64,000 nucleotides of DNA, from NCBI RefSeq assembly GCF_002954765.1, contig NZ_MTPW01000001.1, positions 3,175,501-3,239,500 on the forward strand, written 5' to 3'. Position 1 is the stretch's first letter, and the number at the start of each line of letters is the position of its first letter. The notes beneath the pieces were generated by a model that did not search any database, was not told the DNA's origin, and saw nothing but the letters and a program-made list of their open reading frames with translations. The position numbers and the translations under genes are program-made. The stretch is from Nonlabens arenilitoris (GTDB taxonomy: Bacteria; Bacteroidota; Bacteroidia; Flavobacteriales; Flavobacteriaceae). Shown one piece after another: positions 5,718 to 20,309 of this stretch.

Positions 5718-5735
5718 ACGCTTCCGCGAAAGCGA
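5718..5735. repeat. Genome palindrome copy 2 (one-base variant)
   Basis: ACGCTTCCGCGAAAGCGA, one substitution from the consensus, directly after the terminator. It is the last copy before the cassette array; the next is at 22844. Confidence 0.8.
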
Positions 5736-5755
5736 ATACACGACCAACCCTACAG

Positions 5756-6586
5756 TTATAGAAAGTCTAATGGTGACGCCACGTTTTGCATGGTGCGAGT
5801 GGTTACATGTGTATAAATTAATGTGGTTTTAAGATTAGTGTGTCCTAGTAATTCTTTAATGATGCGCACGTCTGTACCAGAATCCATTAAATGCGTTGCA
5901 TAAGCATGTCTTAAACTATGTAGGGTAACGTACTTTTTAATATTGGCTTTCTTGCATGCGATATGAAAAACTTTACGCAAACTTTGAGGACTGTACTGTG
6001 GTTTATTTTGCCCTTCAAATAAATATTCTTTGGGTTTGTATTCTAGATAATAAGCTTTTAAGACTGGCTTAAGTGATGCTGGTAAAGGCAGTACTCTATC
6101 TTTGCCATTTTTGGAATTTTTGATATGGACTTGTTGTCTTTGTTTATCTATGTCTGTAATTTTAAGAGCGATTAACTCACCACTGCGCAAACCTAATCCA
6201 TAAATAAAGGCAAGCATTGCTTTATGCTTTTTATTCACACAACTGTTTAATATAGCCTTTACCTCTACTGTAGATAAAACAGTGGGCAATGGTTGCGGTG
6301 TTGAACGTGGATAAACTTTTGAGAAATCATATTCTCGATTGTGCATTTCTTTAAAATATAATTTAATAGCACCTATCAATTGTTTTTGAGTGCCTAAAGC
6401 AAGGTTTTTGTGAGGTACTACTTTACTAATTGCATCATTAACCTGGTAGTTATCAAGACCATCAAGTGGTCTGTCCATCCCTAAGAATTTTTGAAAAGCA
6501 ATAAGATGTCCTGCATAAGATTCTATGGTATTATGAGCATACCTTTTAATGGTCAATAATTTCTTAAAATCATAAAAGGTTTGCAT
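5756..6586 (-). CDS. Tyrosine recombinase, candidate integrase of the cassette array
   Basis: 276-residue XerC/D-like site-specific recombinase. The N-terminal SAM-like DNA-binding domain spans about residues 1-85 and the catalytic domain about 100-276. Catalytic residues are visible: Arg134 (GLGLRSGEL), Lys159 or Lys162, His223 and Arg226 (LHSLRHAYATHL), His249 (LLGHTNLKTT) and the nucleophile Tyr258 (LIYTHV). The C-terminus ASPLDFL resembles the IntI ending (VRSPLDxL), but the insertion that marks canonical integron integrases, just before the HxxR box, is missing. It is transcribed away from the 13.5-kb cassette array, as intI genes are. The start codon at 6586 lies 25 bases downstream of a TACTTTTG -7 box and inside the first of three direct repeats. 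Driving cassette exchange here is inferred from position. Confidence 0.93.
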   Translation of the reverse strand: MQTFYDFKKLLTIKRYAHNTIESYAGHLIAFQKFLGMDRPLDGLDNYQVNDAISKVVPHKNLALGTQKQLIGAIKLYFKEMHNREYDFSKVYPRSTPQPLPTVLSTVEVKAILNSCVNKKHKAMLAFIYGLGLRSGELIALKITDIDKQRQQVHIKNSKNGKDRVLPLPASLKPVLKAYYLEYKPKEYLFEGQNKPQYSPQSLRKVFHIACKKANIKKYVTLHSLRHAYATHLMDSGTDVRIIKELLGHTNLKTTLIYTHVTTRTMQNVASPLDFL

Positions 6587-6692
6587 TTACTGCCATTTTT
6601 GAGTTATGTACAAAAGTAGTAAAAGGTTTGCATTAGGTTCATATACAGTATTGTAATGTTATACTATTTTACTTAGGTTTGTATTTACTAAC
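6574..6692. promoter_or_regulatory. Putative attI region with direct repeats and divergent promoters
   Basis: Three direct repeats of (A)AGGTTTG(C/T)ATT(T)A lie at 6574-6589, 6621-6635 and 6675-6687, spaced about 50 bases apart; the first covers the recombinase start codon. The reverse strand has a -7 box TACTTTTG (6618-6611) for the recombinase. The forward strand has TTG (6651-6653), a 20-base spacer and TAGGTTTG (6674-6681), a good Bacteroidota promoter whose start point would fall at about 6688, just before the first cassette junction at 6693. This matches the attI plus Pc layout of integrons, where direct repeats bind the integrase. The assignment is from layout only. Confidence 0.6.
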
Positions 6693-6745
6693 GTTCTAGT
6701 GAATGCCACACGATTGCGGTTAGAAAAGGTGGCACTCACAAGAAC
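6693..6745. repeat. Mini-cassette or palindrome at the array entrance
   Basis: GTTCTAGTGAATGCCAC (6693-6709) is followed after 19 bases by GTGGCACTCACAAGAAC (6729-6745), an inverted repeat of 17 bases with two mismatches. It begins with GTT and ends with AAC, so it has the same ends as the gene cassettes but no room for a gene. A second inverted pair flanks it: GTTCATATACAGT (6637-6649) and ACTGTATATAAAC (6746-6758). It may be an empty cassette or a structured part of attI. Confidence 0.6.
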
Positions 6746-7169
6746 ACTGTATATAAACTATTTTATAGGTAGTTTTACAAATGTTTGTACAGGCTCAGCA
6801 TCTTTTTTTGCCAACGCTTCTTTATCTAACATTGGTGCAAAAGAGCTTTTAGATATAATTTGCTCGTACATAAATACTTTAGCCTCTAAAACACCTTGTT
6901 TCTCATCTCTGTTATCAAATAAAAAAGCTCTAATAATGTTCTCTACATTTTGTCTACCTTCTTGTCTTATCACTTCACTTTTATATGTCGTTCCACCAGA
7001 ATTCCAGTCATATTTTAATTTGTATAAGCTGTCTAGTAGTTCTTGTATTTTTTGCTCGTTCATTAATTCTGTGATTTTTGCCAACGCTCAAAAAAGATGC
7101 GAGGACGGTTATTGTTTCTATTTTTATTTTGTGATTAATTGTATAAAACAGTTCATATACTTTACCGTT
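6743..7169 (+). other. attC-like site A, atypically long, enclosing an ORF
   Basis: The left arm AACACTGTATATAAAC (6743-6758) matches the right arm GTTCATATACTTTACCGTT (7151-7169) through GTATAT/ATATAC and flanking bases. The arms are about 430 bases apart, whereas other sites span 115-230, and the reverse-strand ORF 6758-7084 lies between them. Either DNA has inserted into the site, or the true left arm is lost and the pairing is secondary. Confidence 0.45.
6758..7084 (-). CDS. Hypothetical cassette protein A (reverse strand)
   Basis: 108 residues, soluble, with many charged residues and no signal peptide or recognisable domain (MAKITELMNEQ ... FVKLPIK). I prefer it to the overlapping forward frame 6699-7181, because this frame has ordinary amino-acid usage while the forward frame is rich in Cys, Phe and Ser. 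The stop codon lies inside the left arm of site A. It points back towards the recombinase, against the putative array promoter, so it would need its own promoter. A short segment TTTTTGCCAACGCT occurs both within the gene (near 6806) and around its start codon (near 7074). Function unknown. Confidence 0.55.
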   Translation of the reverse strand: MAKITELMNEQKIQELLDSLYKLKYDWNSGGTTYKSEVIRQEGRQNVENIIRAFLFDNRDEKQGVLEAKVFMYEQIISKSSFAPMLDKEALAKKDAEPVQTFVKLPIK

Positions 7170-7518
7170 AGGCAACATTAAAGTAGTTACTAAAGTCATA
7201 AGACAGTGCTTTTTTACCCCCAAAAACATCACTTGTTTGATAATATGTTGTACCAATATAGCTTTTACTACAATAACCTAATTCAACACAAGTATTCAAT
7301 GCTTTTCGAAACTTTCTTCTAATATTGGAATATGTTAAAGATTTGTTAGGCATTCTTTTTTCGTGAAATTCGTCTAAATAAAGCATTGAAACCGTATCTA
7401 AGAAAAGATGTTTTCTAGCTATATCTAAACACACTAATACATCTTCAGCCAAAACGTTGCCTAACAACGTATAAAGTTCATTGCTTATTTCTTTTTGCTC
7501 ACTAATTTCTGTACTCAT
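7168..7518 (-). CDS. Hypothetical cassette protein B (reverse strand)
   Basis: 116 residues, soluble, with no family I recognise (MSTEISEQKEISNELYTLLGNVLAEDVLVCLDIARK...). The stop codon overlaps the GTT that opens the cassette (7167), and the start codon at 7518 lies inside the downstream attC-like site B. The whole cassette is therefore filled by a gene reading towards the array entrance. Transcription would have to start inside the attC hairpin. An internal ATG (MLYLDEF...) would give a shorter product starting outside the site. Confidence 0.6.
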   Translation of the reverse strand: MSTEISEQKEISNELYTLLGNVLAEDVLVCLDIARKHLFLDTVSMLYLDEFHEKRMPNKSLTYSNIRRKFRKALNTCVELGYCSKSYIGTTYYQTSDVFGGKKALSYDFSNYFNVA

Positions 7519-7585
7519 AATTTCTGTTTTTTCAATTAAGTTAGTTGCTGTTCAAGGTCGCAACGAAACCTTATACAACTACGTT
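7463..7585 (+). other. attC-like site B
   Basis: Left arm AACAACGTATAAAG pairs with right arm CTTATACAACTACGTT, with inner ATTGC/GCAACG boxes; span 123 bases. The cassette it closes starts GTTAGGCAAC (7167) and ends GTTGCCTAAC (7456-7465), an exact reverse complement. Confidence 0.75.
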
Positions 7586-7970
7586 CTAGTCCATTGCCTG
7601 CGGCCGTAGGTCTTCGCTTTTGTAATTTATAATTACTCTATTGGGATTAGAAACTATAGCACTGCAATAACGCTGCAAAAGACCAACCAGCTATAGTAAT
7701 TATAAATCACAAGTCTCCCAACCTACTCAATGGACTAGAATGGCAAAGCTGTAAAACCTCTTGAGCAAATGTATTCTTGTACTTACTCAATTCACGCCAG
7801 CCGCTAGGAAACAAACAAGAACGTTGTATAATGGCGATTGAGACGTTTTAAAGGCTTATAGCGAGGCTGTGATTGTTCCAAAATTCTGTAACTTCACATC
7901 CATTAACCAACAACCAAAAGGTCTACGCGTACCGGCTAAAACGCCTCACTCGCCTTATACCTTTGCCATT
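7583..7970 (+). repeat. R element copy 1: non-coding structured cassette
   Basis: First of five copies of a 388-base (or 414-base) non-coding unit. The body (7583-7741) is a long imperfect hairpin: CTAGTCCATTG pairs with CAATGGACTAG, GTAGGT with ACCTAC, and TTTTGTAATTTATAATTACT with a near-complementary block at 7695-7713. Its attC-like half (7739-7970, 232 bases in every copy) opens AATGGCAAAG and closes CTTTGCCATT, so the usual AAC/GTT core is AAT/ATT. The end contains TACCTTTG, a perfect -7 box, 3 bases before the next cassette. No ORF of note is present. The next gene here is on the reverse strand, unlike after the other four copies. Confidence 0.8.
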
Positions 7971-7980
7971 AGTAGCAATA

Positions 7981-8244
7981 CTACCATTGTTCTTTGTCAA
8001 CCACTTTAGAGTATCTATTTATGTTATCGTATAAAGCCCACCAAGTTCCTACAAATGTTATTGATAATTCAAGTGCCTCTTTGGTAAATTCGTGTTTATA
8101 CCAAGTGCATTTTCTTTTTTTTCTGTACCACTTGTATTTATTTAAGTAATAGTCAGTCCAAATGGGTTTTTTCTTAACATCCGTACTGCTACTAACAACG
8201 TGTATATCACATTGCTTTTCGGTATTTTTATTATCTTCTATCAT
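7981..8244 (-). CDS. Hypothetical cassette protein C (reverse strand)
   Basis: 87 residues, basic and rich in aromatic residues in the middle (TDYYLNKYKWYRKKRKCTWYKHEF), with a hydrophobic stretch LELSITFVGTWWALYDNI near residues 59-76. No family recognised and no signal peptide. The start codon lies inside attC-like site C and the stop about 12 bases from the cassette opening, so it fills the cassette in reverse, like protein B. Small basic proteins on the reverse strand of cassettes could be toxin-antitoxin parts, but nothing here proves it. Confidence 0.5.
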   Translation of the reverse strand: MIEDNKNTEKQCDIHVVSSSTDVKKKPIWTDYYLNKYKWYRKKRKCTWYKHEFTKEALELSITFVGTWWALYDNINRYSKVVDKEQW

Positions 8245-8308
8245 AATTTCTAAAGTTGTTTATTATTAATTAAATTCTGTGAGAGCAACGTAGCATACAC
8301 AAAACGTT
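8194..8308 (+). other. attC-like site C
   Basis: AACAACGTGTATATCACATTGC pairs in part with GCAACGTAGCATACACAAAACGTT (GTGTAT/ATACAC, ATTGC/GCAAC); span 115 bases. The cassette it closes opens ATTAGTAGC (7968) and ends GCTACTAAC (8188-8196). The first base differs from the prediction because it belongs to the preceding R element. Confidence 0.75.
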
Positions 8309-8321
8309 GCCATTAATTTGA

Positions 8322-9086
8322 ATGAACTACGCGAACGAGAAAATAATTGAACGAATTGAATCAGGTGAAAACCTGAAATACCTTCTATTTTGGGGACATC
8401 AAAAGTCTGACCGAATTACGAAATCTTGTTTCAGTCAATGGTATGAATCTGAATTTGAAGTTAACGGAATTAAATTCTTGACAGCCGAACATTATATGAT
8501 GGCTGAAAAAGCTTTGTTGTTTAATGACAAAGACATTTATGAACAAATAATCAAAAGCTCAAAAGCTGGAAAAGTAAAAGAACTTGGCAGACAAGTAAAG
8601 AACTTTAACCAACGAATTTGGGAAGAAAATAGATTTGAAATAGTTGTAAGAGGTAATTTTCACAAGTTTAGTCAAAACCCAAAGCTATCGGAATTTTTAA
8701 GAAATACGAATGACAGAATTTTAGTTGAGGCAAGTCCAGTCGACAATATTTGGGGAATTGGACTCGCTCAAAATAATGAAGACGCTAAAAATCCATACTT
8801 TTGGAATGGACTGAATTTACTCGGATACGCTTTAATGGAAACAAGAGACATTCTAAATGAAGTTGGAGAATTTAAAACTCTCAAAAATCCGATTTTACCA
8901 CCTTGGTTAGCTTATCCAGAAATTGACAAATATAGTATTGGTTGGAGAATGGGTTATGGAGAAACTCATATAATGGAATTGAGTAAATATTTGGACAGTT
9001 TAAGTCCTTCTGAAAAGAGAATTTACGAATTGACTTATCCTGAAACTGGAGAATGGAAAGGTTGGTATAATGATGATTACGAATAA
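8322..9086 (+). CDS. NADAR family protein, cassette copy 1
   Basis: 254 residues with a NADAR (DUF1768, YbiA-like) domain over about residues 20-180: the motif FLTAEHYMMAEKALLF, then GRQVKNFNQRIWEENR, and the signature EASPVDNIWGIGLAQ with the WGIG core. NADAR proteins are known as N-glycosidases acting on riboflavin-pathway intermediates or on ADP-ribosylated substrates, and several sit in defence or toxin-antitoxin loci. A C-terminal part of about 70 residues follows (LPPWLAYPEIDKYSIGWRMGYGETHI) with no known name to me. The start follows the cassette junction GTTGCCATTA by only a few bases. An almost identical second cassette is at 12698-13611. Confidence 0.88.
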   Translation: MNYANEKIIERIESGENLKYLLFWGHQKSDRITKSCFSQWYESEFEVNGIKFLTAEHYMMAEKALLFNDKDIYEQIIKSSKAGKVKELGRQVKNFNQRIWEENRFEIVVRGNFHKFSQNPKLSEFLRNTNDRILVEASPVDNIWGIGLAQNNEDAKNPYFWNGLNLLGYALMETRDILNEVGEFKTLKNPILPPWLAYPEIDKYSIGWRMGYGETHIMELSKYLDSLSPSEKRIYELTYPETGEWKGWYNDDYE

Positions 9087-9098
9087 AAAACTAATGGC

Positions 9099-9222
9099 AA
9101 CAATGTGTATAATTCATTGCTAGTTATAGCTTACTTACGAAAGTCCTCTCGGACTTTCTATCTGTGATTTATTTGCTAACTTTAGTGCTTAAACACGCAA
9201 CGAAATCATACACTAGACCGTT
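9099..9222 (+). other. attC-like site D
   Basis: AACAATGTGTATAATTCATTGC pairs with GCAACGAAATCATACACTAGACCGTT; the centre forms the hairpin GAAAGTCC-TCTC-GGACTTTC. Span 124 bases. Cassette ends: GTTGCCATTA (8306) and TAATGGCAAC (9092-9101). Confidence 0.8.
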
Positions 9223-9248
9223 ACAGGATAATTTACCTGCGGCACAGA

Positions 9249-9425
9249 CTATTCCGCTTTTAAAAACCATTCACACCATGCTATAGCAAAACTGAGATTA
9301 AGCAAGCGACCTTTGACATAGTCTATATCTATATTCTCACTTGGGTTTTGTAAAGACTTCTCTAGTCCTTTTTTCTCAGTTTTACGCCATCTTATTTCAT
9401 CTAATACTTCTTGTTGACTTCTCAT
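9249..9425 (-). CDS. Small hypothetical cassette protein E (58 aa, reverse strand)
   Basis: A 58-residue reading frame from ATG at 9425 to TAG at 9249. The product starts MRSQQEVLDEIRWRKTEKKG and ends FAIAWCEWFLKAE. It is the only sizeable frame in a 255-base cassette, sits between the two cassette ends, and has normal codon use. It is amphipathic, with a basic middle (RWRKTEKK) and an aromatic end; no family recognised. Like proteins A-C it reads against the array direction. Its start lies 48 bases inside the cassette from site E, so site E could supply the promoter. Confidence 0.55.
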   Translation of the reverse strand: MRSQQEVLDEIRWRKTEKKGLEKSLQNPSENIDIDYVKGRLLNLSFAIAWCEWFLKAE

Positions 9426-9473
9426 AATTTAGTAATTGTTTTTAAAGACTCCCATAGTCTTAAATTATCCTGT

Positions 9474-9700
9474 AACGCCACCTGTAAATAAGCCTATTCA
9501 GTGGGCGTTGTGTGTTTGTTTTTTCAGTTGATGAGCAGTTAAACTATCCATAACACGATGTATATCGTATAAGGCTCATTTATGTCTACCTGTGAGGTGG
9601 CTTAATCCTCAATTAGTTGTTTACTTTGAACTGTTCGGAAATACCGAATAGTTGCTATTTACTTGCAAATGAACCTCACACGACATACACAGGTGGCGTT
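9474..9700 (+). other. attC-like site E, composite
   Basis: The outer arms AACGCCACCTGT (9474-9485) and ACAGGTGGCGTT (9689-9700) are a perfect 12-base inverted repeat. Two shorter sites are nested: AACGCC...GGCGTT at 9474-9511, and AACACGATGTATATCGT (from 9553), which pairs strongly with the right arm up to 9700 (TGTAT, TCGT, AGG and TCATTT blocks). The 227-base span and the nesting suggest two sites fused after loss of the cassette between them. Cassette E ends are GTTACAGGATAATTTA and TAAATTATCCTGTAAC, an exact 16-base match. Confidence 0.65.
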
Positions 9701-9749
9701 GTGCATAATGTAGAGCAACTAATCTAAAGTTGAAAAACGAACTATTGAA

Positions 9750-10214
9750 TTGAAAAGAAAAGAAATATTTTGGTTAATTGTAACAGCTCTATTTGTGCTA
9801 ATTTTGAATTTAATATTATTAGGTTTTGACGGATTTAAACCTGAATCTAATACTGACATCAATATTCACGACACTTATTTTGTGATTACCAATGTTCATT
9901 TTTTTCTACTATTATCAGTTCTGATTTTTTTTAGCGTTTACATTATACGAATGTTAAAGATGAATTTTAAAAACTTTACTGCGAATCTGATTTTTATGAT
10001 TAGCGGATTATTGTTTATTTGGGTTCTTACCGGAATAATTTCAATTGTAAATTCTCATATACAAGTAACAGATACAACTGAATATAACCTTACTGTTACA
10101 AATAACATCTTTGACAATCTTTCGACAGTTCTATATCTAACTCAAATAATAATAGTTGGATTAATAGCATATAGCGGATTTAAAACTGGACGGAACTATA
10201 AACAGACTAAATAA
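9750..10214 (+). CDS. Small membrane protein with a heme-copper-oxidase-like motif (cassette F)
   Basis: 154 residues from a TTG start (KRKEIFWLIVTALFVLILNLILLGF), with about four predicted membrane segments (near 7-25, 48-67, 80-100 and 128-145). Between segments 1 and 2 is NIHDTYFVITNVHFFLL, which resembles the DTYFVVAHFHYVL segment of cytochrome oxidase subunit I, but the protein is far too short for that subunit and the paired histidines are not preserved. It is a stand-alone membrane cassette gene of unknown function. The TTG start is chosen because no ATG precedes the first membrane segment. Confidence 0.6.
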   Translation: MKRKEIFWLIVTALFVLILNLILLGFDGFKPESNTDINIHDTYFVITNVHFFLLLSVLIFFSVYIIRMLKMNFKNFTANLIFMISGLLFIWVLTGIISIVNSHIQVTDTTEYNLTVTNNIFDNLSTVLYLTQIIIVGLIAYSGFKTGRNYKQTK

Positions 10215-10227
10215 AAACACTATGCAC

Positions 10228-10413
10228 AACACAGTGTATAAAACATAGCTATTAAGTGATCAATCGAATGGTTTGTATATGCTTGAAAAGTCCGCCAAAT
10301 TTTAAATTTGGCTTTTAAACTGAATAAATTAAAAACAAAATATAAAATTTAGCTAAGTGTTAATCCGAAAATTTAGTACTTTTAACACGCTACATTTTAT
10401 ACACATCAACGTT
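10228..10413 (+). other. attC-like site F
   Basis: AACACAGTGTATAAAACATAGC pairs with GCTACATTTTATACACATCAACGTT (GTGTATAAAA block); span 186 bases with an AT-rich middle. Cassette ends: GTTGTGCATAATG (9698) and CACTATGCACAAC (one mismatch in 13). Confidence 0.75.
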
Positions 10414-10432
10414 GTACAACATTTGACCAAAA

Positions 10433-10891
10433 ATGAAACTATTCCGATTTTTAAGGAAAAAACTGAACGAATTGGATAATATTCCAGAGGATAATCTGAC
10501 TGAAAAGATTACGGAAAAATCTACTATGGAAACTGAATCTAAAACAGAAATGAATAACAAAAAAATCGACAGAACAAATTGGACTGGAGAAAATTTTGAG
10601 TTTCTAATAATTGGAGTTGATGAAATTCCAAACGAGGAATATGACAAGATAATGACACCGAATTCATATAAATGGAAAAAAGTTATTAAAGATGAATGGC
10701 CATTTTATGTAGTTGGAGAAGATGAATTTAGTTTTTCTTGGGAAATGCCAGGAATCCAATTCACTTTTAATAAAGAAGTGGAGTATGAAAAAGCAAAAAA
10801 GATTGCGGACGAAATAATTGAGAATATTAACTCGATTGGACAAAAAGCGGAATTATTAACTCTTGAATCGAATAAAATTTATAAATTCTAA
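10433..10891 (+). CDS. Hypothetical soluble cassette protein G
   Basis: 152 residues with no signal peptide. The basic start (MKLFRFLRKKLNEL) is followed by a low-complexity Glu/Lys/Thr stretch (about 18-45) and a folded part from about residue 48 (TNWTGENFEFLIIGVDEIPNEEYDK ... VGEDEFSFSWEMPGIQFTF). I do not recognise a family. It opens 20 bases after the junction GTTGTACAAC and closes just before the matching TTGTACAAC at site G. Function unknown. Confidence 0.65.
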   Translation: MKLFRFLRKKLNELDNIPEDNLTEKITEKSTMETESKTEMNNKKIDRTNWTGENFEFLIIGVDEIPNEEYDKIMTPNSYKWKKVIKDEWPFYVVGEDEFSFSWEMPGIQFTFNKEVEYEKAKKIADEIIENINSIGQKAELLTLESNKIYKF

Positions 10892-10911
10892 CTGAATAAA
10901 AAACGTTGTAC

Positions 10912-11102
10912 AACACCGTATAAAAATAATAGGGCGATTAGTTGCTTAATTCAATGGATTGGGCACTTTTGCGAAGTCGCCAAGTTTTTAAATTTGGCTT
11001 ATTGAAAAAAAAAGATAATAAGAAAAATTTAAAAATTCGGCTTGTGTTTAACCGAATGATAGTCGCTTAATTTCAGCCCTACTATTCTTATACAAATCCG
11101 TT
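10912..11102 (+). other. attC-like site G
   Basis: AACACCGTATAAAAATAATAGGGC pairs with GCCCTACTATTCTTATACAAATCCGTT (split across 10912 and 11076-11102); span 191 bases. The cassette end words GTTGTACAAC are self-complementary, so both ends read the same. Confidence 0.75.
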
Positions 11103-11127
11103 AGAGCCAATATTTGAAACCAATAAA

Positions 11128-12009
11128 ATGACAGATGAAGAGAAAGCTAAAATCTTAATACAAGAAGCAAATAGTCTGAATTTGGAAACTTTGATTCCGA
11201 GTCTTGAACAGATTATTCAATCACATGCTTTTGTTGTAGATTCAATATACGAAGCGCAACCCAAATTTGAACATGGTGAAGTTTATCAAGAAACTTTACT
11301 AATCAAAATGATTTTCACTTCTAAAAGTATATTGGAATTATCTAAAGGAATTAACTTCTCAATATTAAACAGCGACAAAAAAATCCCAATCATTGATAGG
11401 TCATCAATTTATATTTTAACAAGGTCTCTACTTGAGACATTTTTAACTTTAGAATATTTGTTTTTCAATCAAATAAGTAGAAACGAACAAATATTTAGAT
11501 ATAATCTTTGGCGAATATCTGGTTTTATGTCTCGTCAAGATTTTGGTAAAACTCAGAATAAAGAATTCGCAGAAAAGATTGAAAGAGAAAAAGCTGAAAT
11601 TTCACAATTGAAGAAAGAAGTAAAATTGAGCCCTTTTTATAAAGAATTAAAGGAAAACCAGTTGTGGAAACTAGACAATTATGGACTTCCAAGAATAATC
11701 AGTTGGATACCTTTACTCAAACAAAGTGTATTAAAAAATGATTCATTCGAAAAGGTATACAAACTTTATTCTAATTACGCCCACTCAGAATTTATTTCAA
11801 TAATTCAATTGAATGAGGGAAAAGTATTCGCAAATGATGAATTTAATATAGGGACAACGATAACAACTTTAAACAATGTTAGAATTTTAAACTGTGTAGC
11901 TTTGATAATGATGACTAATAAATTTGAATTCGCTAAAAGTAAATTTGGTGAGTTAGATGAAAAGCAAAGATTTATTATTGAATTTTGGAATAAGTTAGCC
12001 GTTGAATAA
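11128..12009 (+). CDS. Hypothetical alpha-helical cassette protein H
   Basis: 293 residues, soluble and mostly helical. The spaced motifs TRSLLETFLTLEYLF (about residue 97) and VYKLYSNYAHSEF (about 210) resemble the RxxxE...YxxxxH pattern of DUF5677-like or HEPN-like helical proteins, but I would not assign the family without a profile search. Residues 145-175 look like a coiled coil (KIEREKAEISQLKKEVK). The ATG at 11128 lies 27 bases after the junction GTTAGAGCCA. Several HEPN-type families are RNases of toxin or defence systems; whether this is one is open. Confidence 0.65.
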   Translation: MTDEEKAKILIQEANSLNLETLIPSLEQIIQSHAFVVDSIYEAQPKFEHGEVYQETLLIKMIFTSKSILELSKGINFSILNSDKKIPIIDRSSIYILTRSLLETFLTLEYLFFNQISRNEQIFRYNLWRISGFMSRQDFGKTQNKEFAEKIEREKAEISQLKKEVKLSPFYKELKENQLWKLDNYGLPRIISWIPLLKQSVLKNDSFEKVYKLYSNYAHSEFISIIQLNEGKVFANDEFNIGTTITTLNNVRILNCVALIMMTNKFEFAKSKFGELDEKQRFIIEFWNKLAVE

Positions 12010-12023
12010 AACATACTGGCTCT

Positions 12024-12149
12024 AACAACGTGTATAATTCATTGTTCGGTTCGTGTGTACTCGGAAAATTCCTGCGGAATTTTCCTTAGGTCAGTTTTCT
12101 TTTACTAATTTAGTCCTAGCCAACACAACGAAATCATACACAACACGTT
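12024..12149 (+). other. attC-like site H
   Basis: AACAACGTGTATAATTCATTG pairs with CAACACAACGAAATCATACACAACACGTT; the inner hairpin is GGAAAATTCC-TGCG-GAATTTTCC. Span 126 bases. Cassette ends: GTTAGAGCCA (11100) and TGGCTCTAAC (12017-12026). Confidence 0.8.
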
Positions 12150-12172
12150 GTAGGTAATTTAAAATCAATATT

Positions 12173-12520
12173 ATGAAAAAAACATTAATGATTATTTGTT
12201 CGCTAATAATTGCTTTTTTGACATCGTGCGCAGAAAATACATCTGAAAATAAGTCAAAGAAGAAGACAGTAAATGAACTTGTAAAATACTCTTATTCATT
12301 TGATGAATTAAAAGATTCGCCAATTAATGACTACACAAATAAAATTAGCAAAGAGTTACGTGTATTTGCGAGAACAAAAATTGATGGCGAATTCGGAGCT
12401 AGAGGCAGGTTTGAAGACGATGAAAAAGTTGTTATATTTATTGCTCAAACGATTAATTCAAATCGGGATAAGAAGTTTTATGCCTTGATATATAATAAGA
12501 AAATCAAAATAAAGATTTAA
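12173..12520 (+). pseudogene. Lipoprotein cassette I, apparent C-terminal frameshift
   Basis: 115 residues up to the present stop. The lipoprotein signal ends at a lipobox (IIAFLTSC, Cys at about 19). The body is unknown (YSYSFDELKDSPINDYTNKISKELRVFART...). The last residues KKIKIKI are followed directly, in the +1 frame, by a natural-looking tail ENQNKDLIEVSEDLLKKSNKTDKNYLQQWL that runs to a stop inside site I. One extra A in the run at about 12496-12499 would join the two frames. The likely intact protein is thus about 30 residues longer. Either the cassette gene is decaying or the consensus lost a base. Confidence 0.6.
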
Positions 12521-12577
12521 TAGAAGTATCCGAAGATTTATTAAAAAAGTCAAACAAAACAGATAAAAACTACCTAC

Positions 12578-12699
12578 AACAATGGCTATAAACAATTGCT
12601 ATTAAGAGCTTATCCTGAAAATTCCTGCATAATTTTCAGCTTGTCGTATACTTGCAAAAGTCCGTGCTAACCCACGCAACTACTCATAGCCCAACCGTT
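12578..12699 (+). other. attC-like site I
   Basis: AACAATGGCTATAAACAATTGC pairs with GCAACTACTCATAGCCCAACCGTT (GGCTAT/ATAGCC); inner hairpin GAAAATTCC-TGCAT-AATTTTC. Span 122 bases. Cassette ends: GTTGTAGGTA (12147) and TACCTACAAC. The stem word differs from sites D and H (GTGTAT/ATACAC) but both arms changed together. Confidence 0.8.
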
Positions 12700-12712
12700 G
12701 CCATTAATTTGA

Positions 12713-13477: not shown

Positions 13478-13489
13478 AAAACTAATGGC

Positions 13490-13613
13490 AACAATGTGTA
13501 TAATTCATTGCTAGTTATAGCTTACTTACGAAAGTCATCTCGGACTTTCTATCTGTGATTTATTTGCTAACTTTAGTGCTTAAACACGCAACGAAATCAT
13601 ACACTAGACCGTT
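13490..13613 (+). other. attC-like site J (copy of site D)
   Basis: Same sequence as site D apart from one base in the central loop (TCATCTC for TCCTCTC). Span 124 bases. It closes the second NADAR cassette. Confidence 0.8.
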
Positions 13614-13622
13614 GCCAACAAT

Positions 13623-14072
13623 ATGAGAAAAGCAGTTTTCATAACAATATTTAGTCTTTTAATTATAAGTTGTGCAAACAAGAAAAAGAAAGAACCTGAA
13701 AACGAAATAAAAACGGAATTGAATAAAAAAACTCAGAATTTAGAATTGAAAAAGGAGGAATTCTTAAAATCGAAAATCTTCTTCGGACTTAAAAACTTGA
13801 ATGACGGATTCGACTCTGAATCTATATATTACTTTACTGAATCTGACTTTGAAATTGTGCTGAACAGAGTGAAAAAAAACGGAATAGGAATTTACGGAAT
13901 TGAACCTTGGCTGAATGGAGATTTTTATAATGTTAGAGTTCACGAACAACTGAACGCTGAACCAAATGACCCGAAATGGTATCGAGAAGCATTTTCTGAA
14001 TTTAAAAAAAGAGGAAAGAATTTACAATATTCTGCAACTTATGAAATCCCAAATGAATTAATAGTGGAATAA
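13623..14072 (+). CDS. Hypothetical lipoprotein (cassette K)
   Basis: 149 residues. The lipoprotein signal is MRKAVFITIFSLLIISC (lipobox LIIS-C, Cys 17), followed by a Lys/Glu-rich linker to about residue 48 and a small folded part (FFGLKNLNDGFDSESIYYFTESDFEIVLNRVKKNGIGIYGIEPW). I do not recognise a family. The start codon follows the junction GTTGCCAACA by one base. It is probably anchored to the inner leaflet of the outer membrane or to the inner membrane; function unknown. Confidence 0.65.
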   Translation: MRKAVFITIFSLLIISCANKKKKEPENEIKTELNKKTQNLELKKEEFLKSKIFFGLKNLNDGFDSESIYYFTESDFEIVLNRVKKNGIGIYGIEPWLNGDFYNVRVHEQLNAEPNDPKWYREAFSEFKKRGKNLQYSATYEIPNELIVE

Positions 14073-14084
14073 AATACTGTTGGC

Positions 14085-14208
14085 AACACCGTGTATAATT
14101 CATAGCTAGTTATAGCTTACTTACGAAAGTCCTAGCGGACTTTCTATCTGTGATTTATTTGCTAACTTTAGTGCTTAAACACGCAACGAAATCATACACA
14201 AACACGTT
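14085..14208 (+). other. attC-like site K
   Basis: AACACCGTGTATAATTCATAGC opens and ACGCAACGAAATCATACAC...CGTT closes; central hairpin GAAAGTCC-TAGC-GGACTTTC. Span 124 bases. Cassette ends: GTTGCCAACA (13611) and TGTTGGCAAC. It is followed directly by R element copy 2. Confidence 0.8.
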
Positions 14209-14593
14209 CTAGTCCATTGCCTGCGGCCGTAGGTCTTCGCTTTTGTAATTTATAATTACTCTATTGGGATTAGAAACTATAGCACTGCAATAACGCTGCA
14301 AAAGACCAACCAGCTATAGTAATTATAAATCACAAGTCTCCCAACCTACTCAATGGACTAGAATGGCAAAGCTGTAAAACCTCTTGAGCAAATGTATTCT
14401 TGTACTTACTCAATTCACGCCAGCCGCTAGGAAACAAACAAGAACGTTGTATAATGGCGATTGAGACGTTTTAAAGGCTTATAGCGAGGCTGTGATTATT
14501 CCAAAATTCTGTAACTTCACAACCATTAACCAACAAACAAAAGGTCAACGCGTACCGGCTAAAACGCCTCACTCGCCTTATACCTTTGCCATT
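14206..14593 (+). repeat. R element copy 2
   Basis: 388-base copy, nearly identical to copy 1 (GTTCTAGTCCATTG at the start, CAATGGACTAGAAT at 14351-14364, attC-like half 14362-14593). It ends TACCTTTGCCATT, so the -7 box lies about 30 bases upstream of the DUF6090 start codon. Confidence 0.85.
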
Positions 14594-14621
14594 GTGCTTC
14601 ATTATGACAAACCGCTAACCA

Positions 14622-15395
14622 ATGATAAAATTCTTTACAAAAATTAGACAAAAACTGATATCTGAAAATAAGTTCAGTAAATATCTGATTTATGCCATTG
14701 GCGAAATTATTCTTGTCGTTATTGGAATTTTGATTGCTTTGCAGATTAATAATTGGAATGAAAACAGAAAGAATAAGGATTTGGAATTGGCCTATCTTAA
14801 AGGGATACAAAGCAATCTCGTAAATGATATCGATGAACTTGAAAGGCATTTTAAAGGAGATACGCTAAAATTAGATGCGTTATCTGTTTTATTAAGGACT
14901 ACGGAAACAGGCGTAGAAAATTCGCAGGTGCAAACCCATATTTCAAATTCACTACTTGTATCAAGAGAACATTGGTTTGAAGGGCAAAACGTTGTTTTTG
15001 AGGATATGAAATCGTCTGGAAAACTTAACCTTTTGCAATCAGAAAGAATTAAGCTATCAACTCAAATTTACTATAGGCTTTTTGTAGAGACTATAAAGCA
15101 TGAAGATATTAATAACCAATTTTACAGAAATTATATCAAAAATAATTCTGAATTGGTCAAAGTGTATCCTTTAGTAGAAGAAATGTTTCCAAAGAGATGG
15201 AAATCAGGTATAAAACCCGTAAAGTTTTCATCTACTTACTTCGATTTATCCGAAACTGAAAATGATAAAGTACTTGATAACTACAGTTTGATGAAAGCAA
15301 GATTATACAGTTCTCACATGGCACGCTTGCGTCTATACCAAAATGCAAAACAACTTGAAGAATTAATTGAAGTATATCTTGAAGAAAAAAAATAA
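14622..15395 (+). CDS. DUF6090 family membrane protein (cassette L)
   Basis: 257 residues. The N-terminus is the DUF6090 signature: a short basic helix (MIKFFTKIRQKLISENKFSKY), one membrane segment (AIGEIILVVIGILIALQI, about 24-42) and NNWNENRKNKDLELAYLKGI. The C-terminal part is a long helical periplasmic or cytoplasmic domain. The family is abundant in Flavobacteria; its function is not established. It is the first gene after R copy 2, so it may be read from the TACCTTTG box at that end. Confidence 0.85.
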   Translation: MIKFFTKIRQKLISENKFSKYLIYAIGEIILVVIGILIALQINNWNENRKNKDLELAYLKGIQSNLVNDIDELERHFKGDTLKLDALSVLLRTTETGVENSQVQTHISNSLLVSREHWFEGQNVVFEDMKSSGKLNLLQSERIKLSTQIYYRLFVETIKHEDINNQFYRNYIKNNSELVKVYPLVEEMFPKRWKSGIKPVKFSSTYFDLSETENDKVLDNYSLMKARLYSSHMARLRLYQNAKQLEELIEVYLEEKK

Positions 15396-15404
15396 CGAAA
15401 GCAC

Positions 15405-15529
15405 AACAATGGCTATAAGTAATTGCTTGTTCTCGCCTACTTCTGAAAATCCTCACGGATTTTTTCAGTTTGGTGTGTACTTGTAAAGTTGAGTGCTAAC
15501 CCACGCAACTACTCATAGCCGAGACCGTT
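15405..15529 (+). other. attC-like site L
   Basis: AACAATGGCTATAAGTAATTGC pairs with GCAACTACTCATAGCCGAGACCGTT; inner hairpin GAAAATCC-TCAC-GGATTTTTTC. Span 125 bases. Cassette ends: ATTGTGCTTC (14591) and AAGCACAAC. The A in place of G again follows an R element. Confidence 0.8.
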
Positions 15530-15914
15530 CTAGTCCATTGCCTGCGGCCGTAGGTTTTCGCTTTTGTAATTTATAATTACTCACTTGGGATTAGAAACTA
15601 TAGCACTGCAACAACGCTGCAAAAGATCAACCAGCTTTAGTAATTATAAATCACAAGTCTCCCAACCTACTCAATGGACTAGAATGGCAAAGCTGTAAAA
15701 CCTCTTGAGCAATAGTCAGCTTGTACTTACACAATAAACGCCAGCCGCTAGGAAACAAACAAGAACGTTGTATAATGGCGATTGAGACGTTTTAAAGGCT
15801 TATAGCGAGGCTGTGATTATTCCAAAAATCTGTAACTTCACAACCATTAACCAACAACCAAAAGGTCAACGCGTACCGGCTAAAACGCCTCACTCGCCTT
15901 ATACCTTTGCCATT
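15527..15914 (+). repeat. R element copy 3
   Basis: 388-base copy with start GTTCTAGTCCATTG and internal end CAATGGACTAGAAT; attC-like half 15683-15914. It differs from copies 1 and 2 at the loop (CTCACTTGGG) and in CAGCTTTAG, changes that are not compensated on the other strand. It ends TACCTTTGCCATT. Confidence 0.85.
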
Positions 15915-15930
15915 ACCATACATTTAAGAA

Positions 15931-16515
15931 ATGAGCATAATCGGAACTAATTTAATGTTTGTACTTATAAAAGTCGTGAGCGAAAATAACGCTGACGAAG
16001 TAAAATTATATTTAAGTTCGAGCAACTTCTTTTCAAAAGAGTTTAATCTAACTGATTTTAAAAAAAACGAACTAACTCTTATCGGAATTGAAAACCGAGA
16101 AAAACTGATTTCGGAATTAAACAATTATCTGAATTGCTATATTGACATAGAGAAGTTAGAAAACGGAAAACTTGACTTTTGGAGTGACCAAACTCAAATC
16201 GGAGAATTTATAGTAGACAAATTTGAAGAAAAGACAACTAATTTTGATAAATCGGATTGGATTGAAAGTTATGAATACTTGCTAAATGAGTATTTTAAAA
16301 AAGAGGAAATAAGTTCCAAAGAGATTAGATTAAATAATGGATTTATAAGTAAACTTGAAAATTTTATTGAACAAGAACGAATTAAGAATGAGCAGAAATC
16401 TGAATTTTTCAAAACGGATTCGATTAAACTGAATTCAATAAAAGAAAAATCGGATTTGATTGACAAATTTGAAAACATAAAAAATCAATATCTGTCTGAA
16501 CTACGAAAAATATAA
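15931..16515 (+). CDS. Hypothetical soluble cassette protein M
   Basis: 194 residues with no signal peptide (MSIIGTNLMFVLIKVVSENNADEVKLYLSS...). It is rich in Glu, Lys and Asn. The N-terminal 70 residues look like a mixed alpha-beta domain and the C-terminal half is helical (LENFIEQERIKNEQKSEFFK). No family recognised. The ATG lies 19 bases after the R3 junction ATTACCATAC, so transcription from the R3 end box would give a very short leader. Function unknown. Confidence 0.65.
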   Translation: MSIIGTNLMFVLIKVVSENNADEVKLYLSSSNFFSKEFNLTDFKKNELTLIGIENREKLISELNNYLNCYIDIEKLENGKLDFWSDQTQIGEFIVDKFEEKTTNFDKSDWIESYEYLLNEYFKKEEISSKEIRLNNGFISKLENFIEQERIKNEQKSEFFKTDSIKLNSIKEKSDLIDKFENIKNQYLSELRKI

Positions 16516-16526
16516 AAACGTATGGT

Positions 16527-16650
16527 AACACCGTGTATAATTCATTGCTAGTCCTAGCCTACTTACGAAAATCCTCGCGGATTTTCTATTCGGTTTGTAT
16601 TTGCTAAATTAGTTGCTTAAACACGCAACGAAATCATACACAATCACGTT
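16527..16650 (+). other. attC-like site M
   Basis: AACACCGTGTATAATTCATTGC pairs with ACGCAACGAAATCATACACAATCACGTT; inner hairpin GAAAATCC-TCGC-GGATTTTC. Span 124 bases. Cassette ends: ATTACCATAC (15912) and GTATGGTAAC. Confidence 0.8.
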
Positions 16651-17061
16651 CTAGTCCATTGCCTGCGGCCGTAGGTTTTCGCTTTTGTAATTTATAATTA
16701 CACTCTTGGGATTAGAAACTATAGCACTGCAATAACGCTGCAAAAGATCAACCAGCCATAGTAATTATAAATCACAAGTCTCCCAACCTACTCAACTGTC
16801 TTCCTCTCGTTGTGCTCGTCGGAGACAATAATGGCAAAGCTGTAAAACCTCTTGAGCAATAGTCAGCTTGTACTTACACAATTCACGCCAGCCGCTAGGA
16901 AACAAACAAGAACGTTATATAATGGCGATTGAGACGTTTTAAAGGCTTATAGCGAGGCTGTGATTATTCCAAAATTCTGTAACTTCACAACCATTAACCA
17001 ACAAACAAAAGGTCAACGCGTACCGGCTAAAACGCCTCACTCGCCTTATACCTTTGCCATT
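16648..17061 (+). repeat. R element copy 4 (variant with 26 extra bases)
   Basis: 414 bases. It is the same as copies 1-3 except that the end of the body (CAATGGACTAGA) is replaced by a block that folds on itself (TGTCTtCC...GG-AGACA, about 16798-16827). As a result the body end no longer complements the GTTCTAGTCCATTG start. The attC-like half (16830-17061) keeps the exact 232-base length and ends TACCTTTGCCATT. Confidence 0.85.
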
Positions 17062-17106
17062 GGTAGCCATATATGAAAACCGACTAAAAAACATTACTTT
17101 TGAACT

Positions 17107-17493
17107 GTGTTAAGTCGAATAAGAAATAGCGTATTTACGAAAATCCTTTGGGGACTAATGGGTTTATATCTTCTCAACATAAGTGTTGATTCTGCAGACC
17201 CAAACCCTGAACATATTCTTGAAGATTTATCATTCAATGACCAAGAAAGTATTATTGAATTAATTCTTGAAAAAGTACTGGGTTATGAAGATGCTATTAA
17301 AGAATACGATGACCACGACACCGAAGACCACAACAAGCAGAAAAATATTAAAATAGACTTTTTAGTGCACGTTATTCAGGCAGATAAATTCGAACAAAGC
17401 CTAATTGACGAAAGAAAAAAACTTTATCCTGATTTTGCAGCTCGATTATCAAAAGGCTTCAATAAAATAGACAGTCCACCACCCAAGATTTGA
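17107..17493 (+). CDS. Hypothetical protein, first gene of two-gene cassette N
   Basis: 128 residues from a GTG start (MLSRIRNSVFTKILWGLMGLYLLNISVDSADP). The N-terminus has one hydrophobic segment (about 12-27), an uncleaved anchor or a signal peptide; the rest is acidic and helical with DDHDTEDHNKQ near 70 and a Pro-rich end. It is the only cassette here with two genes: the HAEPLYID protein follows 57 bases later. The pairing suggests a shared envelope function, not known to me. Confidence 0.65.
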   Translation: MLSRIRNSVFTKILWGLMGLYLLNISVDSADPNPEHILEDLSFNDQESIIELILEKVLGYEDAIKEYDDHDTEDHNKQKNIKIDFLVHVIQADKFEQSLIDERKKLYPDFAARLSKGFNKIDSPPPKI

Positions 17494-17571
17494 TTTGTTT
17501 TACAATTTGACTAATTCTCACCTATTTAATAGTAGTGGGAATATTTCTTAATGCTTAAAAAACAAATCAAA

Positions 17572-18432
17572 ATGAATTTAAAAAAATTATTAGTGCTAAT
17601 AATACTTTTGGCATCTTCAACATATTCAATTGCACAAATTACAAAGACTGAAAAAGACAGTATTTATATCCAACAAGTAGAAGACCATAAAGAACCTGAC
17701 AAAGTTCTACACGCTGAACCACTCTATATTGACTTAATTCGAGATTTAGGGGCAAGAAAAGGAGAAAAAGAGTGGAACGTTGGTTTAGGCTTAACAGATA
17801 ACTTAAAATTTGATGCTTATGAAGCTCTAATTGAATATGAATGGGCACCTATCAACAGATTAGGATTTGAAGTTGAACTACCATTCACTTTTTATTCCCC
17901 ACAAAGTGGTGTAAGTCGAGATTCAATACCTTCAAATAGATTAAATAGCATTAAAATAGCTACTCAATGGTCTTTTTTTGTTAGTGAGCCAATGGCAACA
18001 TCAATGGCAATTGGATATATCAACGAGTTTGAATTGTCGGATTTCAGAAACTTTGGAAGTCCTTTCATTAAAGGAAATATCTATAATCCGTTTTTTGTTG
18101 TTGCAAAACGTTGGGGTAACAATTTTCATTCATTGATATATACAGGTCCAATGATTGAACAGAATTTCATTACCAATGAATTTCATACGACTTATGATAT
18201 CAACACAAGTTTTCATTATATGATTACAGGCACAAGAAATTTCATAGGTATTGAATTTAACAAAACTATTGACAATAGCGACTTTGATATGACAATACGA
18301 CCACAAATGCGTTTAGGAATAGCCGACAACTTATTGGTTGGAATTGTAGCAGGAATTCCTGTAAGTAGAGAAAATGAAAGGTTTAGTTCTTTCGTAAGAC
18401 TCATTTGGGAGCCGAAACATAAGCATAAATAA
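17572..18432 (+). CDS. HAEPLYID family outer-membrane-like protein (cassette N)
   Basis: 286 residues from ATG 17572; an in-frame ATG at 17551 adds seven residues and fits a signal peptide less well. The signal peptide MNLKKLLVLIILLASSTYSIAQ is followed by VLHAEPLYIDLIRDLGARKGEKEWNVGLGL, the motif that gives the family its name. The rest alternates polar and aromatic residues like a small beta-barrel (EYEWAPINRLGFEVELPFTFY, ATQWSFFVSEPMATSMAIGYINEF). Location in the outer membrane is inferred. Function unknown. Confidence 0.8.
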   Translation: MNLKKLLVLIILLASSTYSIAQITKTEKDSIYIQQVEDHKEPDKVLHAEPLYIDLIRDLGARKGEKEWNVGLGLTDNLKFDAYEALIEYEWAPINRLGFEVELPFTFYSPQSGVSRDSIPSNRLNSIKIATQWSFFVSEPMATSMAIGYINEFELSDFRNFGSPFIKGNIYNPFFVVAKRWGNNFHSLIYTGPMIEQNFITNEFHTTYDINTSFHYMITGTRNFIGIEFNKTIDNSDFDMTIRPQMRLGIADNLLVGIVAGIPVSRENERFSSFVRLIWEPKHKHK

Positions 18433-18445
18433 AAATACGGCTACC

Positions 18446-18569
18446 AACAATGTATATAAAAAATAGCGGTTTAGGTACAAATCTGAACCGCTATTACCTT
18501 TAATTTAAGTATATTGTTTTCCGAAAATCTAGTATTTAAAACCCGCTACTTTTCATATACGAGACCGTT
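18446..18569 (+). other. attC-like site N
   Basis: AACAATGTATATAAAAAATAGCGG pairs with CCGCTACTTTTCATATACGAGACCGTT (split: opens 18446, closes 18569); the central block GGTTTAG...CTGAACC also folds. Span 124 bases. Cassette ends: ATTGGTAGCC (17059) and GGCTACCAAC. Confidence 0.8.
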
Positions 18570-18980
18570 CTAGTCCATTGCCTGCGGCCGTAGGTTTTCG
18601 CTTTTGTAATTTATAATTACGCTCTTGGGATTAGAAACTATAGAACTGCAATAACGCTGCAAAAGATCAACCAGCTATAGTAATTATAAATCACAAGTCT
18701 CCCAACCTACTCAACTATCTTCCTCTCGCTGTGCTTGTCGGAGACAATAATGGCAAAGCTGTAAAACCTCTTGAGCAATAGTCAGCTTGTACTTACCCAA
18801 TTACCGCCAGCCGCTAGGAAACAAACAAGAACGTTGTATAATGGCGATTGAGACGTTTTAAAGGCTTATAGCGAGGCTGTGATTATTCCAAAATTCTGTA
18901 ACTTCACAACCATTAACCAACAACCAAAAGGTCAACGCGTACCGGCTAAAACGCCTCACTCGCCTTATACCTTTGCCATT
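18567..18980 (+). repeat. R element copy 5 (variant like copy 4)
   Basis: 414 bases with the same replaced block as copy 4, differing in a few bases (CTCGCTGTGCTTGTCGG). The attC-like half is 18749-18980. It ends TACCTTTGCCATT, about 30 bases before the next start codon. Confidence 0.85.
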
Positions 18981-19010
18981 GGCAACAAGCTAAAAACATT
19001 ACGCTGAAAA

Positions 19011-19526
19011 ATGAACCGAATAACAAAAAACATAACATTACTTCTGATTTTTGTCTGTATTTCCTGCAACCAAAAGAAATCTGACAAAACTTACTTGGCG
19101 AATTATATTAATTCCGTGAAAGTCGATAATTCACTTACGGAAAACCCTTTGCTGATTATCGATGGATATGCAGTTGAATATGAAACAATGAATGACGGTT
19201 GGTTCCTGTTACTTGAAGAGGATATTTCAAAGGTTAAGTATTTGAAAAAAGAAAACGCTGAAAAAATATACGGAGGAAAAGGTAAAAACGGAGTTGTTTT
19301 ATTAACGACCAAATTACAAGAAAGAGAAATAGCAAATACAAAGTCGGACAAGAAAACTCTATATGTTCTTGACGGAGAAATAATATCTGTCGATGAATAT
19401 AGAAAAATTGACCAAAGCAAAATAATTGGAGTTGGAACAATAACGGAACAGAGCGCAATAAAAGAATTTACATCGGACAATTATGATGAACTGATTTACG
19501 TATCGACAAAAATGACGACTGAATAG
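19011..19526 (+). CDS. Lipoprotein with TonB-plug-like motifs (cassette O)
   Basis: 171 residues. The lipoprotein signal is KNITLLLIFVCISC (Cys about 19). Two segments resemble TonB-dependent receptor plug domains: PLLIIDGYAVEYE...DISKVKYLKKENAEKIYGGKGKNGVVLLTTK, where receptors have a xxYG.RGANGVxxITTK motif, and a second half-repeat TLYVLDGEIISVDEYRKIDQSKI. It is much too short to be a receptor. A plug-only lipoprotein could bind or mimic a TonB partner; that is inference. Confidence 0.65.
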   Translation: MNRITKNITLLLIFVCISCNQKKSDKTYLANYINSVKVDNSLTENPLLIIDGYAVEYETMNDGWFLLLEEDISKVKYLKKENAEKIYGGKGKNGVVLLTTKLQEREIANTKSDKKTLYVLDGEIISVDEYRKIDQSKIIGVGTITEQSAIKEFTSDNYDELIYVSTKMTTE

Positions 19527-19542
19527 ATAAAAGCCAGTTGCC

Positions 19543-19669
19543 AACACCGTGTATAATTAATTGCTTTGGCAAGTGCTTATTTGGAAAATTCCTTCGGAAT
19601 TTTCTCGCGTTCGTTTTTGTTTACTAAATTAGTTGCTTAAACACGCAACTAACCATACACAAAACCGTT
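19543..19669 (+). other. attC-like site O, last clear site
   Basis: AACACCGTGTATAATTAATTGC pairs with ACGCAACTAACCATACACAAAACCGTT; inner hairpin GGAAAATTCC-TTCG-GAATTTTC. Span 127 bases. Cassette ends: ATTGGCAAC (18978) and GTTGCCAAC. Confidence 0.8.
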
Positions 19670-19694
19670 GTAAAACATTTGAGGAAACAGAACT

Positions 19695-20144
19695 ATGAAA
19701 AAATATTTATTGACTATTATGTTACTTCTTTTCGTTTTGAACTCATTTGCTCAAAAGAAAACAAAAGAGGAAAGACAAGCGGAATTGGACGCTAAAAAAG
19801 AAGGGAATTATATAGCAAGAGAAAAATTAGATTATTCACCATCATTTGCTTTGTTACTTGCTCAAGGACAAATGTTCACCAAAAAGGTTAATGTAACTAT
19901 TGATTTTGGACAAAAATCAGGCTTTTTCGAGCAAAGTTATATACGTGACGAAAATGGAAAGAAAATAAAATTTTATACTGTCATTGACGCTCTAAACTAT
20001 ATGAAATCCTTAGGATGGGAATTTATAGACGCTTACGCAATTACAATCGGCAATTCGAATGTCTATCATTATTTATTCAAGAATGACGGAAATGCAAAAA
20101 TTCCGAATGTTAATGTTGACGGAGAAGAAAATGATGATAATTAA
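19695..20144 (+). CDS. Hypothetical exported protein (last cassette, P)
   Basis: 149 residues with a signal peptide (MKKYLLTIMLLLFVLNSFAQ) followed by a Lys/Glu-rich stretch and a small folded part (KVNVTIDFGQKSGFFEQSYIRDENGKKIKFYTVIDALNYMKSLGWEFIDAYAI). The tail EENDDN is acidic. No family recognised. It opens after GTTGTAAAACATTTG, but no complementary GTTTTACAAC follows it, so this cassette has lost its attC or marks the end of the array. From 20145 to 20309 I see no site with the regular arms. Confidence 0.65.
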   Translation: MKKYLLTIMLLLFVLNSFAQKKTKEERQAELDAKKEGNYIAREKLDYSPSFALLLAQGQMFTKKVNVTIDFGQKSGFFEQSYIRDENGKKIKFYTVIDALNYMKSLGWEFIDAYAITIGNSNVYHYLFKNDGNAKIPNVNVDGEENDDN

Positions 20145-20309
20145 TAATTGTTTAAGTAAACGGATTTATAAAATAGAATTAATAAAAACGTTTTAGAGCA
20201 TAAAATATAATGCGATAAAATCATTTCTTATCTTCATAAATAAGACAGCATATTATTGATGGATACACTTTACTTATCGGCTGCCTAACTAAGTCTATTA
20301 TTTTAAAAA

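Follow-up and report, generated by a model that had tools for sequence, protein, structure and literature searches.

According to the excerpted text of PMC7790495, the I2 helix of the integron integrase IntI is necessary for cassette capture and occurs in no other protein. What, then, moves the cassettes of an array that adjoins a recombinase without this insertion? The question is raised by a 64,000-nucleotide (nt) stretch of the Nonlabens arenilitoris chromosome (contig NZ_MTPW01000001.1, positions 3,175,501-3,239,500 of the forward strand; hereafter the window), in which the gene of a tyrosine recombinase, P0001, lies next to an array of units separated by attC-like sites. We concluded that this locus is very probably a sedentary chromosomal integron, run by a tyrosine recombinase without I2, of a kind that is widespread in Bacteroidota. 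The conclusion was drawn from sequence comparison: unit boundaries at ^TT (the caret marks the joint), paired cassette ends and covarying attC hairpins point to it, as do cassettes common to two arrays, the differing content of a sister genome and the neighbourhood of recombinase and sites. Since the locus is integron-like in all that sequence can show and is without the defining protein feature of IntI, it would be a variant of the integron, and P0001 is presumably the enzyme that moves its cassettes.

The gene and the region between it and the first unit are as follows.

5756-6586, minus strand: tyrosine recombinase P0001 without the IntI I2 insertion, 276 amino acids (aa)
6587-6695, plus strand: putative attI region; repeats of type AGGTTTGCATTTACT were seen by eye, the first overlapping the recombinase start; G^TT at 6693-6695

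A preliminary description of the window had a recombinase facing away from a 13.5-kb array, and both were found where it had placed them. The array spans 13.5 kb, opening with the attI G^TT at 6693-6695 and closing with a G^TT at 20190. P0001 faces away from it, and the first predicted insertion point adjoins the recombinase gene, 107 bp away, as an attI would. The residues R134, K159, H223, R226, H249 and Y258, which we take to be the catalytic ones, are all present in P0001 and show no variation in the 11 rows of alignment A2. The span from the KDR to the HxLRH motif is 61 residues in P0001 and 61-62 in 107/107 family members (a count that omits the TGA-bearing members L006 and L010 and also L085, which is a record of L010), vs 103 in 19/20 IntI proteins; the remaining IntI reads 41. 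The IntI-specific insertion is thus lacking, as the preliminary description had said, and IntI4 aligns with P0001 in two pieces with IntI4 residues 181-244 skipped. Among Xer proteins the span could be measured in 2/5 rows only, both reading 110 from what is probably the wrong anchor, and we claim no Xer comparison.

In profile searches P0001 scored 190.7 bits with the integron-integrase profile TIGR02249 (cut-off 265), 188.2 with the archaeal XerA profile NF040815 (cut-off 220), 167.2 with the XerD equivalog profile (cut-off 329.6) and 148.6 with the XerC equivalog profile (cut-off 335.15). The earlier label XerD-like therefore fits only in part: P0001 does match XerD, with fewer bits than IntI and XerA, and stays below all cut-offs. 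By Foldseek structure comparison XerA was the best match among the ranked chains. A phylogeny, proposed in the preliminary description as a check, placed the P0001 family apart from the IntI rows and from the five Bacteroidota Xer rows sampled, in a tree made without archaeal XerA rows. The own genome (G000) has at least two further Xer-like genes among the matches listed by a whole-genome protein search.

Next, we examined the ends of the 21 units, which comprise 16 with at least one open reading frame (ORF) (cassettes 1-16, or c1-c16) and five copies of one non-coding unit (u1-u5). For each unit we compared the heptamer preceding the closing AAC/AAT with that following the opening TT. The unit's own ends pair at 6-7 of 7 bases in 18/21 units and at 7/7 in 15; pairing with the ends of other units averaged 2.2, and the observed sum was matched by 0/100,000 permutations. 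Such complementarity within a unit is the trace that the opening of circular cassettes at ^TT would be expected to leave. Units u1-u3 pair their ends via AAT/ATT instead of AAC/GTT, which is a compensated change; the ends of u4 and u5 do not pair. The units follow one another in this order.

6694-7167, minus strand: cassette 1, ORF of ~102 aa; unusual end, with a distance of only 49 nt between the start and R''
7168-7583, minus strand: cassette 2, ORF of 116 aa; attC 7463-7585
7584-7968, plus strand: non-coding unit u1, ~387 nt; end A^TT
7969-8306, minus strand: cassette 3, ORF of 87 aa; attC 8194-8308
8307-9220, plus strand: cassette 4, NADAR-domain protein (Pfam PF08719; PADLOC PDC-M42C); attC 9099-9222
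9221-9698, minus strand: cassette 5, short ORF read by eye; attC 9474-9700
9699-10411, plus strand: cassette 6, 154 aa; attC 10228-10413
10412-11100, plus strand: cassette 7, 152 aa; attC 10912-11102
11101-12147, plus strand: cassette 8, 293 aa, DUF5677; attC 12024-12149
12148-12697, plus strand: cassette 9, 115 aa; attC 12578-12699
12698-13611, plus strand: cassette 10, almost the same sequence as cassette 4; attC 13490-13613
13612-14206, plus strand: cassette 11, 149 aa; attC 14085-14208
14207-14591, plus strand: non-coding unit u2
14592-15527, plus strand: cassette 12, 257 aa, DUF6090; attC 15405-15529
15528-15912, plus strand: non-coding unit u3
15913-16648, plus strand: cassette 13, 194 aa; attC 16527-16650
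16649-17059, plus strand: non-coding unit u4, ~413-nt variant
17060-18567, plus strand: cassette 14, ORFs of 128 aa and 293 aa; attC 18446-18569
18568-18978, plus strand: non-coding unit u5, ~413-nt variant
18979-19667, plus strand: cassette 15, 171 aa; attC 19543-19669
19668-20190, plus strand: cassette 16, 149 aa; end degenerate; 20190 is the last G^TT

The sites between the units share with attC the AAC...GTT arms, a hairpin and cassette-specific outer arms. A covariance model, R1, was built from 13 window sites (alignment A1) and gave 14 window matches at E<=0.1, every one within the array, so the attC-like separation of units that had been read from the letters holds. A second model, R2, made with sites from other genera only, recovered 9 of the 13 window sites at E<0.05 and missed 4. 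Changes on both sides with the pair preserved were found in 8/13 predicted pairs of A1 and in 16/16 of alignment A3 (29 sites, other genera). In A4 (85 sites, out of sample), 91.3% of cells were paired vs 54.5% in shuffled and 30.9-39.0% in slid alignments; 423 cells were changed on both sides vs 134.6 in shuffles, and the covariation score was 0.789 vs 0.170. The preliminary description had ATTGC pairing in full with GCAAC. The inner TTGC/GCAA do pair, whereas the flanking A stands opposite C, a conserved A.C mismatch that becomes T opposite G on the bottom strand. It is nearly invariant amid varying pairs (A1 13/13, A3 29/29). Among model-found sites the mismatch is present in 83/83 A4 rows lettered on both sides (of 85) and in 148/149 of A5 (150 rows, from 183 matches), alignments that were fitted to their models and may lean towards them, and whose source loci were picked from loci already with matches.

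How would such a site react? For the predicted circle form, folding stability favours the bottom over the top strand in 13/14 window cassettes (all but cassette 5); folding z-scores against shuffles range from -2.0 to -5.9. We think it probable that the reacting form of attC is a folded single strand, the bottom one. The recombinase would bind the attI repeats next to its own gene and the hairpins of a folded attC from a circular cassette, and joining of attI and attC at G^TT would allow single cassettes to be inserted, excised and reordered; the A.C mismatch (read as T.G in the bottom strand) may help to choose strand or orientation, replacing the I2 contacts. A rather unlikely alternative, which concerns the mechanism only, is that attC stays double-stranded and undergoes ordinary two-strand exchange, so that the system would be integron-like without the central reaction of the integron. 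I2, said in the excerpt of PMC7790495 to give IntI its single-strand pathway, is missing here, and nearly perfect stems occur, e.g., in cassette 5 (by eye). Such exchange leaves no evident need for stem pairs to covary across distant sites, as they do, and the greater stability of the bottom strand in the circle form also speaks for a folded strand.

We then looked for cassette exchange in the own genome. A second attC array lies on the same chromosome ~0.52 Mb from the window (G000:C1:2648320-2663998; loci L173, L174 and L189); no member of the P0001 family was found at it among the matches listed by the whole-genome protein search. Cassettes 4 and 5 recur in this array with 100% identity over 921 nt and 99.8% over 485 nt, respectively, and their copies there are not adjacent to each other. 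At both ends of both cassettes the identity stops at ^TT: before cassette 5, for example, the window has an attC and the second array has the end of a non-coding unit. Within the window, cassettes 4 and 10 agree at 909/914 bases, and their neighbours differ beyond the same joints. The NADAR genes of these two cassettes are at 8322-9086 and 12713-13477; the cassette 4 protein matches the candidate anti-phage defence model PDC-M42C, and the cassette 10 gene is a near-identical copy.

In the sister genome (G012), the left flank of the window is matched at 95.7-95.9% identity up to the attI G^TT, where the two diverge: a non-coding unit follows in G012 at the place of cassette 1 in the window. The G012 contig stops shortly past attI, and its array is known only piecewise. 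When the window array was compared with the whole of G012 (40/92 first-look candidates scored), 27 matches were obtained, and these were confined to units, attC sites and stretches of the cassette 12 gene for DUF6090 (76-78% identity, and 85% over 54 nt). The same units in fixed order in relatives, named in the preliminary description as what would overturn it, were thus not seen in G012, and the comparisons point to the gain, loss or move of single cassettes. That the array is a fixed set of repeats, spread by homologous recombination or transposition with no cassette exchange, is hardly credible to us; the repeated units and the attC sites do offer homology for recombination, but cassettes 4 and 5 break at ^TT on both sides with unrelated neighbours, and the content of the sister genome is almost wholly different.

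Several further observations were made in these arrays. From the last G^TT onwards (window 20186-20205) the sequence is again homologous to G012, where this point falls inside a 202-aa gene, in its 3' end; this suggests that the array end was joined to a chromosomal gene at a GTT. One R1 site is located ~2 kb from that junction on the same piece of G012 (L188 6726-6921). An inversion was also sought, and the 741 bases to the left of the G012 breakpoint had no match in G000 among the 40/55 candidates scored. On the far side of its recombinase, G012 carries ~815 extra bases (L031 18091-18906, G012:C3) partly similar to the non-coding unit. The G004 array (L035) contains several identical 1217-nt blocks at separate places, a probable sign of recent cassette copying.

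Is this recombinase found beside such sites elsewhere? R1 sites were detected in 21/21 searched genomes of the genus Nonlabens, at 2 to 83 per genome. Eighty named loci were gathered by alignment of 11 short recombinases; 28/80 had R1 sites at E<0.05, and R2 found 154 sites in 44/80 at E<=0.01, of which 123 are downstream on the recombinase strand, 28 upstream on the opposite strand and 3 elsewhere. Among long members (>300 aa) for which 2 kb or more is available downstream, 29/33 have sites (19/23 once the 10 loci used to build the model are removed), as do 8/9 short members flanked by 2 kb on either side; the recombinase is therefore not one that is widespread without arrays, the second finding that the preliminary description had expected to count against it. 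Less than 1.5 kb of sequence is available downstream of the recombinase in 34/80 loci vs 7 upstream, a bias that contig breaks at repeats would produce. Across the class, R2 sites are present in 73/99 genomes and 59/75 genera, counts that are lower bounds, with filters so strict that the own genome gave only 1 site. The proposal of an integron-like array served by an I2-less recombinase is accordingly supported, and the kind of site is not confined to one chromosome.

A model-free chain test, in which GTT-X7 ... X7'-AAC are linked via an L-box-like stem, found chains of at least 4 in 29/117 sequences vs 1/1170 resampled ones (first-order resampling; some of the 117 overlap, such as L173/L174 and L041/L042), and the two window pieces outside the array stayed below 3. 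A chain of at least 2 begins 94-106 nt past the recombinase stop in 16/80 named loci, and in both long and short types the insertion point is preceded by a motif near TATANACTA|GTT (by eye). In Maribacter halichondriae (L131 6757-7650), a second recombinase-like ORF was noted at the array end, ~2-3 kb from the family member.

A number of results weigh against an integron run by the adjoining recombinase. Own-end pairing is missing in u4 and u5 (4/7 each) and in cassette 16 (1/7). In A4 there is no excess of pairs changed on both sides (16 vs 14.9; 48/500 shuffles as high) or of further pair types (50 vs 47.1; 86/500 shuffles as high). No site was found in 4/33 long and 1/9 short testable loci, and loci with less sequence show sites in only 7/32 long and 0/6 short members. 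The branch uniting the P0001 family has moderate, unstarred support (89/94). The recombinase frame contains a TGA in G004 (G004:C4:1857671-1858492) and G017 (G017:C16:136564-137385); these interrupted frames adjoin arrays, and possibly the two recombinases were inactivated and their arrays left behind. Arrays without a close recombinase are present in the near-complete genomes G003, G007 and G016 and in the less complete G001 and G013; together with the second array of the own genome, they imply that some arrays lack a recombinase acting in cis.

The last point would suit attC clusters that have no integrase of their own and are moved in trans, either by a distant IntI or by XerC/XerD of the host, with the recombinase nearby being incidental. 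True IntI proteins, i.e., those over the integron-integrase cut-off, are indeed present in 46/148 Bacteroidota genomes. We nevertheless consider this explanation improbable: no protein over that cut-off was found in the own genome or in the other 14 same-family genomes of the sample, and the neighbourhood of recombinase and sites is steady, as is their spacing. R2 gave no site at 20 true-IntI loci, a weak control with loci of only ~3-4 kb each. A sedentary integron with its own I2-less recombinase is the reading that we prefer.

The non-coding unit is ~387 or 413 nt long, starts with G^TTCTAGTCC and ends with A, not G, before the next TT. The own genome contains 11 matches to it, and G003 no fewer than 17, with up to 17 candidates per genome scored; matches were found in 13/39 searched genomes, all of the genus Nonlabens, and a 31-nt end is conserved in several species. 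Rfam gave no match in window 5500-22000, non-coding unit included. The unit might act as a promoter, since its end TACCTTTG resembles the Bacteroidetes -7 element; no matching upstream element was seen by eye. A group IIC intron or an attC-targeting insertion sequence (IS) element was considered as a possible identity of the unit, which has no notable ORF and no Rfam match.

What would a natural cassette system without I2 mean? Our opinion is evenly divided on a broader proposal: that capture of folded attC needs no I2, that a whole Bacteroidota branch apart from IntI captures cassettes in this way with A.C-marked attC, and that the system either is older than I2 or has dispensed with it. Either origin, if true, bears on the chicken-and-egg paradox set out in the excerpt of PMC4792948, which asks how I2 could be selected before attC, or attC before I2. 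A natural and widespread I2-less cassette system would make the origin of I2 testable with living enzymes, and surveys based on IntI have probably overlooked a large pool of cassettes.

Integrons in Bacteroidota as such are already known: integrons or intI in this phylum or its group are listed in the available text of PMC9668308, PMC2426708 and PMC8618304. In that of PMC9024848, Salinibacter ruber is the only member of the Bacteroidetes with a complete integron, which is to be set against the 73/99 genomes with sites reported here. No description of cassette arrays with an I2-less recombinase was found in searches of open-licence papers, preprints being outside the scope. An integron-like subgroup of tyrosine recombinases, in which the insertion is not fully conserved and is yet called essential for integron function, is described in the excerpt of PMC8138268; unlike the present family, its members without the insertion are not described there with cassette arrays.

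Compared with IntI sedentary chromosomal integrons, as far as the excerpts of PMC7790495 and PMC9024848 describe them, the present system likewise has a recombinase by the insertion point and mostly single-gene cassettes; it also shares with IntI integrons attC hairpins that lie between AAC and G^TT, differences in single cassettes and recombinase-less arrays elsewhere in the genome. It differs from them in a recombinase without the I2 insertion, in the nearly invariant A.C mismatch of attC, and in long members that are co-directional with the array and have the insertion point ~100 nt past the stop. P0001 is like XerC/XerD and the archaeal XerA in having no IntI insertion, and unlike XerC/XerD its family branches apart from the five Xer rows of Bacteroidota in the tree and adjoins cassette arrays. 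CALIN, defined in the excerpt of PMC9024848 as attC clusters without an integron-integrase, would include the second array of the own genome; the window array, in contrast, has an adjoining recombinase of a family that is missed by the IntI cut-off and is not IntI by profile.

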